From: Lactobacillus panisapium
GTDB lineage: Bacteria; Bacillota; Bacilli; Lactobacillales; Lactobacillaceae
NCBI RefSeq assembly: GCF_019469265.1
Contig: NZ_CP048268.1
Coordinates: forward strand, 1,271,501 to 1,335,500
Direction: 5' to 3'
Length of the DNA stretch: 64,000 nt
In this document: piece by piece, positions 54,077 to 57,465 of the stretch
Position numbering within the stretch: position 1 is the stretch's first letter
Layout of the letters: each line of letters opens with the position of its first letter
Notes under the pieces: model-generated
The model's input: only the letters and a program-made list of their open reading frames with translations
What the model was told of the DNA's origin: nothing
Database searches by the model: none
Position numbers and translations under genes: made by a program

Positions 54077-54107
54077 AACTTATGTTCTTTGCGAGAAACA
54101 AAGAGAT

Positions 54108-54181
54108 GGTCTGGTAGCTCAGCTGGATAGAGCAACGGTCTTCTAAACCGTGGGTCGTGAGTTCGAATCTCACCCGGATCA
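54108..54181 (+). tRNA. tRNA-Arg (anticodon UCU)
   Basis: A complete cloverleaf is visible: acceptor GGTCTGG/CCGGATC, D stem GCTC/GAGC, anticodon stem ACGGT/ACCGT with loop CTTCTAA (TCT at 54142-54144), and T stem GTGAG/CTCAC with TTCGAAT. The discriminator is A at 54181 and CCA is not encoded. It reads AGA codons. Prophage genes begin just after its 3' end, so it is the probable integration target. Confidence 0.95.
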
Positions 54182-54325
54182 TTATAAATGGTTTTTACCG
54201 ATTTTTATTAATTGTAAATACCGTTATATCAACAATTTAATTTTTATTGATATTTATCAGTTTTAAAGTTGGCTAACATTTTGGCTAACATAGAAATAGC
54301 CCTAGCAATTAAGCTAGAGCTATTT
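54140..54325. other. Probable prophage attachment-site junction
   Basis: Host genes end before the tRNA, and phage-type genes start after it, facing towards it. tRNA 3' ends are classic targets of tyrosine integrases, so the core is expected within about 54140-54185. The second att copy and the integrase lie outside the window. A 12-base-period tandem repeat (TTGGCTAACAT twice, at 54269 and 54281) could be integrase arm sites. Confidence 0.6.
54294..54325 (+). terminator. Bidirectional terminator between tRNA and prophage genes
   Basis: AAATAGCCCTAGC and GCTAGAGCTATTT pair with one mismatch around a six-base loop. A T run follows on the plus strand, and a weaker one on the minus strand after the 54327 gene. 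Confidence 0.75.
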
Positions 54326-54326
54326 T

Positions 54327-54614
54327 TTATATTGTTTCATTTTCAGCCTTAAAGATTTCTAATAAATCCTTGGCTTTAATTTTCTTTCTCAAGAAATTTG
54401 GGTAAGTTTCAAATACTTTTTTGTCAAAATCAGAAACAGATTTGTAATCTGGCTCGTTTTCAAGCTCTGGATCGTCGAGCGGATAATAATCGAAGTAAAT
54501 CTCCTGGTTATTATCCATAACAATCCAGTAGCCCCAGACGTCAACATTGCCATCTTCGGCAATGTCAGCTGATAGTTCATCAATTAGCTTACTTGCATCA
54601 AACGAATAGTTCAT
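54327..54614 (-). CDS. Hypothetical acidic prophage protein (95 aa)
   Basis: I do not recognise it. The protein is strongly acidic in its first two thirds (ADIAEDGNVDVWGYWIVMD, DDPELENEPDYKSVSDFDKK) and ends with a Lys-rich stretch and a helix (RKKIKAKDLLEIFKAENE). The ATG overlaps the stop of the upstream gene by four bases, so the two are translationally coupled. It is the last gene before the tRNA, a position often held by lysogenic-conversion genes. Confidence 0.7.
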   Translation of the reverse strand: MNYSFDASKLIDELSADIAEDGNVDVWGYWIVMDNNQEIYFDYYPLDDPELENEPDYKSVSDFDKKVFETYPNFLRKKIKAKDLLEIFKAENETI

Positions 54615-54970
54615 TTACTAGCCACGATCTTTCTAGCAGTAGTAATTTCTGCTGAAGTTGCTCCTGCCTTATTCTTAGCAATACGGTAGGCTTTACTGTG
54701 GCAATTGCCAAACAGTAATTGACAAGCATCTAAAGCATCTGGTTTAGCACTTTCTTCCTTGATTGACTCATTTTTAGCTTCTGAGAAGGCATTGCCCTTA
54801 ACGCCTAGTAATTGACCTTTACGGTTGTATCTTACTTGAAAATCAGCGTAATCTTCCATCTCCATATTGCTAGGTAAGATTAACATCTCACGTTCTTCAT
54901 TGGTTAACTCATCGGCTGATTTGTAAATAATAGTAGCTTGTCCATTTTTTGCAATTTCTGTAACTCTCAT
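54611..54970 (-). CDS. Hypothetical prophage protein (119 aa)
   Basis: I do not recognise it. The protein has an N-terminal beta-rich part (VTEIAKNGQATIIYKSADEL), an acidic middle and a C-terminal helix-rich part with two Cys (DACQLLFGNC) and basic residues. A GAAAGGAC ribosome site precedes the ATG. It is driven by promoter-operator copy 1 and coupled with the 95-residue gene downstream. Confidence 0.7.
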   Translation of the reverse strand: MRVTEIAKNGQATIIYKSADELTNEEREMLILPSNMEMEDYADFQVRYNRKGQLLGVKGNAFSEAKNESIKEESAKPDALDACQLLFGNCHSKAYRIAKNKAGATSAEITTARKIVASK

Positions 54971-55012
54971 TTTTAATAAGTCCTTTCTTTAACTCTTTTA
55001 CTTTATACTTTT

Positions 55013-55041
55013 ATAATACACCTACGTATGTGTATTGTCAA
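55013..55041 (-). promoter_or_regulatory. Prophage promoter-operator copy 1
   Basis: On the minus strand TTGACA (55036-55041) and TATTAT (55013-55018) are 17 bases apart. The whole spacer and the -10 lie in the near-palindrome ATACACATACGTAGGTGTAT (plus-strand 55016-55035), which has only one mismatched pair. A repressor bound there would block RNA polymerase. The 29-base unit is identical to copy 2. Confidence 0.85.
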
Positions 55042-55226
55042 CTATTTTTTAAATATTTTTTTCTCTGATTGACATATTCTAGGGTTTTTTCTAAATCTTC
55101 CTCAGTCGCAAACTTCAAAATAAAATTTTTAGAATCAGAACGACGTCTAATATATGTCATTCTTGCCCTATTTTTTTCATTCCACTTTTTATTAGCTCTC
55201 TTTTTGGCTTCACTTAATTTTGCCAT
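55038..55226 (-). CDS. Small basic prophage protein, candidate ribbon-helix-helix regulator
   Basis: The 62-residue protein is very basic (AKKRANKKWNEKNRARMTYI) and has the pattern YIRRRSDSKNFILKFATEED followed by a helix LEKTLEYVNQRKKYL. The order strand-helix-helix and the RS-x-x-NFI segment suggest an Arc/CopG-like fold, but I cannot confirm it. Its ATG overlaps the stop of the 145-residue gene by one base, so it is the second gene of the operon under promoter copy 2. It also ends within promoter copy 1, which overlaps its last codon. Confidence 0.7.
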   Translation of the reverse strand: MAKLSEAKKRANKKWNEKNRARMTYIRRRSDSKNFILKFATEEDLEKTLEYVNQRKKYLKNS

Positions 55227-55663
55227 TAAATTAATTCTCCTTTATAGACAGATTTTGGGCACCATGTAAATAGACAACCGTAATCAGTATCGAATTGGAT
55301 TAATACAGCTTTTTCTGTTTCTTTTTTAACACGTGAATTAAAGCTATTGTTCCAAATTGCTGTCTTTTCCTGTTCGTCAAAGTGTTGATCAATGATCCAA
55401 TCTGGGACTCCATCTTTGTATTTAGGGCCCGTGTATGGCTTGTGGGTTAGCTCATACGTCATATGTCTAATGTTACTGTCGGTTACCCTAACACGATAGT
55501 CCTTAGCCATCTTCCAAATTAACTTTAAAGCATAGCTCATTGCCATGCGGTAGTTCTCAGTTTTGTCAACAATGCTTTTAGCAAGTTTATGAGCTGCGCG
55601 GAACATCGTTGACTTCTTCATCTTCATGTCCTTAATTCTAAATTTGTAACCTTCTGTAATCAT
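55226..55663 (-). CDS. Hypothetical prophage protein with two small modules (145 aa)
   Basis: The N-terminal half (AHKLAKSIVDKTENYRMAMS, then YALKLIWKMAK) resembles a short helical module seen in many phage and conjugative-element proteins of Firmicutes. The C-terminal part (KKETEKAVLIQFDTDYG, then FTWCPKSV) resembles another recurrent module with a W-x-PKS ending. These likenesses are from memory and no function follows from them. It is the first gene under promoter copy 2, with AAGGAC upstream. Confidence 0.72.
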   Translation of the reverse strand: MITEGYKFRIKDMKMKKSTMFRAAHKLAKSIVDKTENYRMAMSYALKLIWKMAKDYRVRVTDSNIRHMTYELTHKPYTGPKYKDGVPDWIIDQHFDEQEKTAIWNNSFNSRVKKETEKAVLIQFDTDYGCLFTWCPKSVYKGELI

Positions 55664-55703
55664 TTTAATAAGTCCTTTCTTAACTCTTTTACTTTATGTT
55701 TAT

Positions 55704-55732
55704 ATAATACACCTACGTATGTGTATTGTCAA
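55704..55732 (-). promoter_or_regulatory. Prophage promoter-operator copy 2
   Basis: TTGACA (55727-55732) and TATTAT (55704-55709) enclose the same spacer as copy 1, with the near-palindrome at 55707-55726. The leader after it (ATAAAGTAAAAGAGTTAA) is also shared with copy 1. Confidence 0.85.
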
Positions 55733-55770
55733 CTAAATTTGCTAAAAAAGTTAAAAAAAGTTATTATTGT

Positions 55771-55802
55771 TTAGAGTTCTTTCGCAACTCTTTTACTTTA
55801 TA
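55771..55802 (-). promoter_or_regulatory. Degenerate third leader copy
   Basis: The stretch AACTCTTTTACTTTATA (plus strand, 55786-55802) matches the leaders of promoter copies 1 and 2, but no -35/-10 or palindrome remains. AGAGTT-N7-AACTCT forms a small inverted repeat. This looks like the remnant of a third unit. Confidence 0.4.
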
Positions 55803-55914: not shown

Positions 55915-56292
55915 CTATTCTATCATATCGACATTATTTATATTACTCAGATCCACCCAGTTGCCAGATATCATGATCTCATCGATGTGATATCCTTCAA
56001 CGAAACCAACGATATCTGGCTGAATGTGACCTTCTACATCTAGTTCTTTCAACTGCACTGCCACTTGACGGTGGTTAGCGTAGGCTGTTATCAGTAGCTC
56101 ACTAGCCTGCTCTTCTGTCATAGTAGGCTTCTTACAATAGACAACTGCTCTCTGTTGGTTATCTCGATTAATAGCAGCAGTGTGATCACTTAGCATTAAG
56201 CCTTGCCACTTTTTCATACCCCGGTCTTGATAAGTTTTAAAAAAATTGTCGAGAATCTGATCGAATTCCTTCTGATTATATTTTTTTCGCAT
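55915..56292 (-). CDS. YolD-like prophage protein
   Basis: The 125-residue protein matches the YolD pattern. DRGMKKWQGLMLSDH near residue 23 corresponds to the DRG-x-x-KW...PEH start of that family, followed by MTEEQASELLITAY. A small barrel with IVGFVEGYHIDEIMI and DLSNINNV comes next. In Bacillus yolD-type genes are often paired with Y-family polymerase genes (uvrX/yqjW) and induced by DNA damage; no polymerase is adjacent here. Its promoter region contains a perfect palindrome. The gene stands between the lysin and the accessory operons. Confidence 0.75.
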   Translation of the reverse strand: MRKKYNQKEFDQILDNFFKTYQDRGMKKWQGLMLSDHTAAINRDNQQRAVVYCKKPTMTEEQASELLITAYANHRQVAVQLKELDVEGHIQPDIVGFVEGYHIDEIMISGNWVDLSNINNVDMIE

Positions 56293-56303
56293 TTTTATCC
56301 CTC

Positions 56304-56330
56304 TACAAACACTAGTTTGTATTTATTATA
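56304..56330 (-). promoter_or_regulatory. Promoter region with palindromic SOS-like box
   Basis: On the minus strand TATAAT (56325-56330) is followed at once by TACAAAC-TAGT-GTTTGTA (56304-56321), a perfect inverted repeat with 7-base arms and a 4-base centre. The AAC-N4-GTT core and spacing equal those of Gram-positive LexA boxes. It sits between the -10 and the ribosome site. Confidence 0.6.
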
Positions 56331-56409: not shown

Positions 56410-57465
56410 TTACAAAATAATTTTTACTTTTGCACCATTAATCCATTTATCAACGCCAGCGCCAATTAGTAAATAGCCTTTGCGCAATTTATAGGCTTTA
56501 TAACGTGAACCCTTGGCAAATTTACGACCGGTAACCGGCCCATCTGCTTCAGCGTGGCCTTTAGCATTGCCGACCACTTCAATTACTGAATGAATATCAG
56601 GATTGTCTAATAGCGGATTGCGCTTAACTACCCCGGTTCGAGGGTCAATATAGCCTTTTTTAGTTTTATAAAAACCTTTTTCATAACCAGTAATCTCGAT
56701 AGTCTTATTGTAATCTAGCATGCCTAATTTCTTATCGTTATTAGGTTCAGCCCATAGTGTGGCACCTTTCTTTTTGGTAACTAGAAACCCACCATACGCA
56801 GTAACGGGTACTTTAATTTTCCAATCCATTAAGTTATTGTCAACTCCTTTATCGTTGTTTTTGTGCTTATCCCAGTCATTTTTATTACCGTAATATACAT
56901 CTAAATCAAGTGGTCCATTGTAACCATTTAGACGGCCATTTGCCGTGTATTGAAACATTGACATCTTATTCCAATGGCACACTTTACCGTATAAAGCACG
57001 TGGGCTAAAGCCATAATGCGGCGCCATGTCGTTATACTGAGCTATCCAAACACTGTATTTTTTAGCCACTGGTGACCAATTGTAATAATTTTCGTCAGCT
57101 AATCCCAAATAAATCATTGGTTTGATACTAGTTTTCTTGTAGACATAATCAAGCCAATTAAGTGCCCACTGCACGCCACCATAAGTTACCACAGTACTTT
57201 CATAATCAAGCACAATAATTGAATGTTTTAGATATGGCTTGGCAGTTCTTAAAAAATAATCTGCTTGTACCTGCCAGTTACCTGGCCGAGCAAAGTGGTA
57301 GAGCCCTGTCAGTTTTCCAGAGTTTTTTGCCTGACTCATGAATAGCGGCATTAGGCCATCAGTGAAATTATTGTTCTCTGTTGCTTTTGCTATAACGCCA
57401 TCAGCTTTAACATTGGCCACATTAAGACCGCCGTTATTATTGGAGACATCAATCACATTAAGCAT
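56410..57465 (-). CDS. Phage endolysin, GH25 muramidase
   Basis: This cuts the peptidoglycan glycan chain at the end of the lytic cycle. The 351-residue protein has an N-terminal GH25 domain (about 1-200). The catalytic acids lie in VIDVSNNNGG at the start and IIVLDYESTVV near 85, and the domain includes YLGLADENYYNW. The C-terminal part (about 215-351) carries repeated beta segments (LWAEPNNDKKLG, AYKLRKGYLLIGAG), probably cell-wall binding. There is no signal peptide, so a holin is needed. It overlaps the holin gene by eight bases. Confidence 0.93.
   Translation of the reverse strand: MLNVIDVSNNNGGLNVANVKADGVIAKATENNNFTDGLMPLFMSQAKNSGKLTGLYHFARPGNWQVQADYFLRTAKPYLKHSIIVLDYESTVVTYGGVQWALNWLDYVYKKTSIKPMIYLGLADENYYNWSPVAKKYSVWIAQYNDMAPHYGFSPRALYGKVCHWNKMSMFQYTANGRLNGYNGPLDLDVYYGNKNDWDKHKNNDKGVDNNLMDWKIKVPVTAYGGFLVTKKKGATLWAEPNNDKKLGMLDYNKTIEITGYEKGFYKTKKGYIDPRTGVVKRNPLLDNPDIHSVIEVVGNAKGHAEADGPVTGRKFAKGSRYKAYKLRKGYLLIGAGVDKWINGAKVKIIL

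Follow-up and report, generated by a model that had tools for sequence, protein, structure and literature searches.

The closest described system is that of Aca13, which in Streptococcus uberis is fused with a Cas9 inhibitor, AcrIIA32, and for which a 'possible self-regulation role' was left open in the relevant excerpt of the original description (PMC8934645). PMC13089141 cites work on the structure of AcrIIA32, and another paper, in the part that concerns it, set Aca13 aside as lacking a helix-turn-helix (HTH) and not validated (PMC9765179). Among open-licence PMC papers, we found no report of an Aca13 operator and no paper on the structure 8YE6 or on the protein family phrog_2277. In other Aca families, sites within core promoters are repressor sites, as the excerpted account of these has it (PMC9410906).

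Here, we analysed a 64,000-nucleotide stretch of the Lactobacillus panisapium genome (the window), in which a prophage carries two small operons headed by identical promoter-operator units, one of them encoding a 62-aa protein that resembles Aca13. The likeness to the Aca13 of S. uberis AcrIIA32 covers the whole 62-aa protein, with no HTH found (excerpted description in PMC8934645). As with Aca13, a small regulator lies beside small genes and the family also occurs fused to other domains, yet the Aca13 part is C-terminal in AcrIIA32 as excerpted there, whereas the family fusions seen here are N-terminal and the window protein is free-standing. Unlike AcrIIA32, the window protein has two candidate promoters and neighbours that are not known Acrs. 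With the HTH-type Aca1 to Aca10, as far as the excerpted account of these goes (PMC9410906), the locus has in common a small regulator in a putatively self-controlled operon and an inverted repeat inside the core promoter; it differs from them in showing no recognised HTH, in a second operon under a duplicated site and in operator classes that change with the protein. As for ribbon-helix-helix (RHH) repressors of the Arc, CopG and RepB type, an arm, SEAxKRANKKW, is common to the window protein and RHH-like proteins, but profile likeness stops at this arm. Besides, ORFC of the Lactobacillus gasseri phage phiadh (AJ131519) is a family member adjoining the attachment site, with a TTGACA-N17-TATTAT promoter 380 bases upstream, although phiadh, unlike the window, has one promoter, a weak dyad (5/10) and only small peptides between promoter and gene.

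Twin promoter-operator units in the prophage

The original prediction held that one and the same 29-base unit heads both operons, and this was borne out: TTGACA-N17-TATTAT occurs exactly twice in the window, both times on the minus strand (Table 1), while 100 dinucleotide shuffles gave a mean of 0.05 matches and none (0/100) with two. The near-palindrome with one mismatched pair (ATACACATACGTAGGTGTAT, 9 of 10 pairs) was likewise recovered in both units, where the dyad takes in the spacer and the first bases of the -10 box, and the two leaders agree at 40/45 positions, gaps allowed. The 40 bases 5' of the units are alike at 24/40 positions with gaps and 15/40 without, which is no more than the level of an AT-rich background. 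A detail absent from the prediction is that the 62-aa gene and P2 share bases, the stop codon of the one overlapping the -35 box of the other.

Table 1. Features of the two-operon block and the prophage insertion site (positions in the window)
Feature	Position	Strand	Remark
P1: TTGACA (-35), 17-base spacer, TATTAT (-10)	55704..55732	-	heads operon 1 (X, 145 aa, and 62 aa)
Near-palindrome (putative operator) in P1	55707..55726	.	9/10 pairs
Leader, operon 1	55664..55703	-	like operon 2 leader
Gene X, 145 aa, phrog_12732, anti-CRISPR candidate	55226..55663	-	operon 1
62-aa Aca13-like protein (phrog_2277), candidate autorepressor	55038..55226	-	operon 1
P2: same 29-base unit	55013..55041	-	heads operon 2 (119 aa and 95 aa)
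Near-palindrome (putative operator) in P2	55016..55035	.	
Leader, operon 2	54971..55012	-	
119-aa gene	54611..54970	-	operon 2
95-aa gene, kept in other duplicated-operator loci	54327..54614	-	operon 2
tRNA-Arg (TCT), prophage insertion site	54107..54182	+	
Attachment core, tRNA-Arg 3' end	54170..54185	.	second copy: genome 1369391

Scatter of the unit over random genomic sites, which had been named beforehand as speaking against the idea, was not what we observed: there are two sites genome-wide, one per operon, and a degenerate form (ATACACMTACGTAKGTGTAT), even when 3 mismatches were allowed, matched nowhere else in the 2.19-Mb genome. With these 2 sites only in the genome, the operator was rejected as a host-wide motif. 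Searched for with 18 fixed bases, the palindrome matched eight genome-contig stretches (seven from beta-proteobacteria and one from Clostridium) and, with 2 mismatches allowed, two genomes of the same order, all of which we take as chance or as sites of other regulators.

As had also been stated, the operons lie between lysin and tRNA, the two-operon block being flanked by a GH25 lysin gene (56410-57465) on one side and tRNA-Arg on the other. The prophage spans ∼43.7 kb from core copy to core copy, and genes for an integrase and for a CI-like S24 repressor lie at its far end; the position of the operons, between lysin and attachment core, would fit lysogenic-conversion genes. An IMG/VR contig (L003) carries the block as well, and since it is identical to the window over 8,486 of 8,486 compared bases, it was excluded as an independent locus. 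Two further elements were seen nearby. Upstream of P1 and beside a terminator-like hairpin lies a third copy of a piece of the leader (55786-55802, minus strand; AACTCTTTTACTTTATA on the plus strand), perhaps a relic of another promoter-leader cassette. Just before a 125-aa gene (55915-56292, phrog_16307), there is an inverted repeat, TACAAAC-N4-GTTTGTA (56304-56321), possibly the operator of another class.

The Aca13-like protein and its putative operators across prophages

No repressor was named in the original prediction; the likely one is the 62-aa Aca13-like product of operon 1. This protein belongs to phrog_2277 (annotated without function; E 1.5e-17) and has one significant match in the PDB, chain 8ye6_B, named 'A32' (residues 90-138, E 1.7e-6 with the single sequence; residues 90-141, E 1.2e-14 with a 13-sequence profile). 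We equate this chain with AcrIIA32 from how it is named and how long it is, and because PMC8934645 describes the fusion and PMC13089141 cites an AcrIIA32 structure (both as excerpted), and infer that residues 90-141 are its Aca13 part. Pfam and NCBIfam yielded no convincing match for the 62-aa protein, and across 53 family members they recognised no DNA-binding domain (best E 0.0029, in one member). According to the excerpted definition, an Aca is encoded immediately next to an Acr homologue and reads in its direction, has a DNA-binding domain predicted by HHpred and is linked to more than two different Acr types (PMC8934645). In the window, the 62-aa gene adjoins X in the same orientation and X has no match to any known Acr; across the family, both cargo and fused domains are diverse, none of them a proven Acr.

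Members of phrog_2277 are found in 29 of the 75 genomes of the genus and in 128 of 330 Lactobacillaceae genomes (control genomes, 0/14). In IMG/VR, a relative is encoded in 54 of 90 stretches matching a peptide pattern, a number that includes four RHH-like proteins sharing only the arm (L132, L133, L134 and L136). Two of these, L136 and L134, match Pfam Arc or RepB-RCR_reg above the cut-off, and a profile comparison with the RHH-like relatives aligned the basic N-terminal arm alone (22 columns). That the arm sits on these four proteins of other phages suggests one arm on different DNA-binding domains, and by eye the 62-aa protein has a strand-and-two-helices pattern; the arm appears to link the family to RHH proteins. 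Across the 53 aligned sequences, high variability at residues 27, 28 and 31 contrasts with the near-constant R29 and S30 beside them.

An inverted repeat inside the core promoter of its own operon, an Aca13-type feature, is present in the window and in 24 of 86 relatives (dyad with 8 or more of its 10 pairs formed, in the upstream promoter, among loci with at least 500 bases upstream of the gene), as compared with a mean of 1.3 and a maximum of 3 loci in 20 dinucleotide shuffles; the other 62 of the 86 loci had no dyad of this quality in the upstream promoter. Flanking of the aca-like gene by two matching promoter units is rarer and occurs for 5 of 96 distinct family proteins (the window, L012, L028, L032 and L035), the remaining 91 having no flanking pair, with flanks of whatever length. 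Within one locus, the flanking units are 27-30/30 alike, and the two operators, aligned in register, have 18-20 of 20 bases in common.

Joint control of both operons by one repressor had been deduced from the identity of the two sites. Duplication or gene conversion could also produce such identity; what supports joint control well is the comparison with other prophages. In L012, L028 and L032, whose proteins have the segment YIVA(R/K)SQ, operators of the same promoter are 17-20/20 alike between loci, although the X of L012 is only 60-61% like those of L028 and L032; between L012 and L032, for instance, X is 61% and the aca-like protein 58% alike, with operators agreeing at 20/20 (P1) and 19/20 (P2) bases. 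Conversely, L028 and L035 have 86% alike X proteins and 54% alike aca-like proteins, and their operators, compared in the register of the palindrome as the L035 spacer measures 16 bases, agree at 11/20 (P1) and 13/20 (P2). The window operators are 11-13/20 alike to those of all four. L028 has a second paralogue with the window segment, YIRRRSD, and the promoter before its gene, ATATACAACCGTAGGTGTAT, is within 3 mismatches of the window operator. At the level of sequence, these comparisons show the operator following the aca-like gene and not the neighbouring X, with both copies changing together. As an aside, the first gene of the second operon of L035 is broken by an early stop codon when compared with L028 and L032.

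We regard it as improbable that another regulator, be it the CI-like S24 repressor of the prophage or a host factor, binds these sites, with the aca-like gene as a bystander. A phage repressor is indeed at hand at the far end of the prophage, but nothing else in the genome comes within 3 mismatches of the site, hence nothing by the S24 repressor's own gene, and the operator goes with the aca-like gene in prophages that otherwise differ. Marginally less probable still is that the units are not jointly regulated and that a cassette of promoter and leader was recently duplicated or copied by gene conversion. Such an event would explain why the leaders are alike as well as the operators and why the two copies of a locus resemble each other more closely than do most pairs from different loci; yet the copies of L028, and likewise those of L032, have undergone drift that largely spares the half-site core, with the dyad kept (18 and 19/20 alike), and both copies fit the local aca-like protein. 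Cassette exchange may still be the way in which both copies move together.

Between protein and operator, one residue and one half-site base vary together. An operator of the window geometry was found in 23 of 90 members, and base 4 of its right half-site is C in 16/16 members with a residue other than Ala at position 28 (9 Lys, 2 Arg, 4 Tyr and 1 Thr, with L031, L085 and L091 assigned Lys by eye and counted as non-Ala) and in 0/7 with Ala-28 (6 T, and 1 A in L135). This co-variation has p 4e-6 by rows, the seven and the sixteen each being related to one another, and p 0.0018 once near-identical members are grouped by eye (13 + 3 groups), under a half-site filter that favoured C or T at base 4 and with L035, for its 16-base spacer, left out. 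L175 has window-like half-sites with another segment (YTTKS), and in L060 Ala-28 goes together with quite another dyad; the apparent rule for residue 28 and base 4 is, then, not a full code.

A search in the reverse direction, with two operator patterns against the 2.9 million contigs of IMG/VR, returned 3 + 5 contigs, all eight with an aca-like gene downstream and no stray match (0), a result that is partly circular in that 7 of the 8 contigs were already known from the protein search and some had been used to write the patterns. L168 was new from the pattern search and has the segment YIVKRST, of the Lys type, in agreement with the prediction from its operator; in L171, the gene adjoining the operator was new, being outside the protein-search matches, and its VAKS is also as predicted. 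The class A (window) pattern was found in IMG/VR in its own prophage only, and in 3 of the 75 genus genomes, including that of the window.

Our preferred reading, to which we give a probability of roughly 80%, is that one small repressor encoded by operon 1 jointly controls both operons. As to DNA binding, dimer formation, repression as opposed to activation and timing, we infer the following course. The 62-aa protein would bind the palindromes of P1 and P2, probably as a dimer, and, from this position on the promoters, would keep RNA polymerase off, thereby repressing its own operon (X and the aca13-like gene) and, in trans, the second one (119 aa and 95 aa). When the phage infects, P1 and P2 would both become active immediately and stay so until the repressor has accumulated, and in the lysogen the output of both operons would be low, yet above nil. 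Least probable of all is that the protein is an activator or co-regulator and no repressor, as a dyad over the spacer and -10 start of a near-consensus promoter is placed where polymerase is expected to be blocked.

Self-targeting and the cargo of the operons

The host possesses a type II-A locus with open cas9 (1390 aa), cas1, cas2 and csn2 genes, an anti-repeat between cas9 and cas1, and an array of 33 spacers, each 30 nt long. Two of these, numbers 18 and 30, match the window prophage at 30/30 positions, both inside one VapE-like gene, and three more do so at 26-27/30. The two perfect protospacers are flanked by TTGAA and CAGAA, both of which fit the inferred PAM, NNGAA. The latter derives from the arrays of five genomes (G000, G019, G039, G017 and G013), which gave 8 matches of at least 29/30 against the collected loci, with NNGAA beside 7 of these 8, or 5 of 6 once both self sites are set aside; as the other Cas9s compared are only 71-73% identical to the host Cas9 (62-65% over the last 280 residues), this PAM is a borrowed one for the host. 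In an excerpted survey, two of five lactobacillus PAMs are of the GAAA type (PMC6070500). Similar matches exist in two other hosts: G019, the host of L032, has a 29/30 spacer (mismatch at position 17; flank AAGAA) whose target lies 6.8 kb upstream of the aca-like gene, and G017, the host of L035, has one of 26/30 (TAGAA). Besides, spacers of G017 and G019 match, fully or nearly, prophage regions of the sister genomes G039 (L144, L145) and G019 (L141); the G017, G019 and G039 hosts thus record each other's prophages.

Self-targeting is a classic hint of an anti-CRISPR, although mutation, repair or a silent system are other reasons for which it may be tolerated. Prophage Acrs are one accepted reason for such tolerance, and self-targeting led to the Listeria Acrs, as stated in the excerpt of PMC6990116. 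For the present locus, the CRISPR spacers and the Aca13 likeness point to a putative counter-defence module in preference to the lysogenic-conversion regulon of the original prediction. Because of the open type II-A locus with two perfect spacers against the window prophage, we see an even chance that the cargo, in the operons or elsewhere in the prophage, includes an inhibitor of the host Cas9. Equally balanced is the alternative that the four genes are not Cas9 inhibitors, CRISPR being silent or the inhibitor lying elsewhere in the genome, which concerns the cargo only and is compatible with the regulatory reading.

X and the 119-aa and 95-aa proteins had no match of known function among phage families, Pfam and NCBIfam (nor X and the 119-aa protein in the PDB), the 95-aa protein showing a sub-threshold YezG-like match (E 0.002) and the 119-aa protein having homologues in bee-associated Lactobacillus, including Lactobacillus panisapium, and in unnamed sources. 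The absence of any gene like a known Acr in these searches (PDB, Pfam and NCBIfam for X and the 119-aa protein, Pfam and NCBIfam for the 95-aa protein) favours a non-inhibitor cargo, but many Acrs have no homologues, so that it lowers the anti-CRISPR claim little. A distant relative of X is named 'lipopolysaccharide export LptBFGC system' at its source, a name for which we see no support.

At the level of the family, an anti-CRISPR role for all members was rejected: there is no association with Cas9, found in 59 of the 128 genomes that carry a family member and in 84 of the 202 that lack one (p 0.43; Cas9-positive at E < 1e-20, 143 genomes by hand count versus 142 over the cut-off, among 330), and this, too, favours the non-inhibitor alternative. 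Full-length cas9 is nonetheless present in 4/4 hosts of duplicated operators (the L012 host left out) versus 4/21 other genomes of the genus, one of the latter with the gene split over two contigs (p 0.006, confounded by kinship). The same alternative draws on the cargo of the operator loci, most of which carry small peptides: 7 of 24 operons hold a gene of 137-161 aa, whereas in 17 of 24 no frame exceeds 66 aa, and all 17 of these have a peptide with a hydrophobic stretch (raw count; relative to the 24 dyad loci, L022 and L091 were dropped and L004 and L099 added). The usual cargo of the family may therefore be such peptides. In L004, L168, L171, L175 and others, the family gene follows one or two very small hydrophobic peptides behind the same kind of palindromic promoter; we presume these peptides to resemble holin-like or type I toxin peptides. 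On the other side of the balance are the open cas9, cas1, cas2 and csn2 genes with their anti-repeat, the inferred PAM at both perfect protospacers, and the fact that the regulator's only significant PDB match is the chain 'A32'.

A more far-reaching proposal is one we put forward tentatively, rating it somewhat below even. Aca13-type proteins would be non-HTH phage autorepressors with a swappable recognition segment, the operators of both promoters changing along with it, and the window would hold a two-operon counter-CRISPR regulon with at least one new type II-A Cas9 inhibitor that keeps a doubly self-targeted lysogen alive. Elsewhere in the Lactobacillaceae, nine frames (L158-L166) as well as L103 and L107 have the Aca13-like domain fused N-terminally to other domains, and these fusions may be further anti-CRISPR-like candidates; their partners are, by eye, of at least four kinds, in open frames of 144-184 aa and 166 aa.

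In summary, Aca13 gains a predicted operator, a predicted specificity residue and about two dozen loci from the present work. The host Cas9 should cut the window prophage twice, which makes the small genes of this prophage anti-CRISPR candidates, and its two gene clusters appear to be good candidates for new CRISPR inhibitors. The operator patterns, in turn, suggest a route to more anti-CRISPR candidates.
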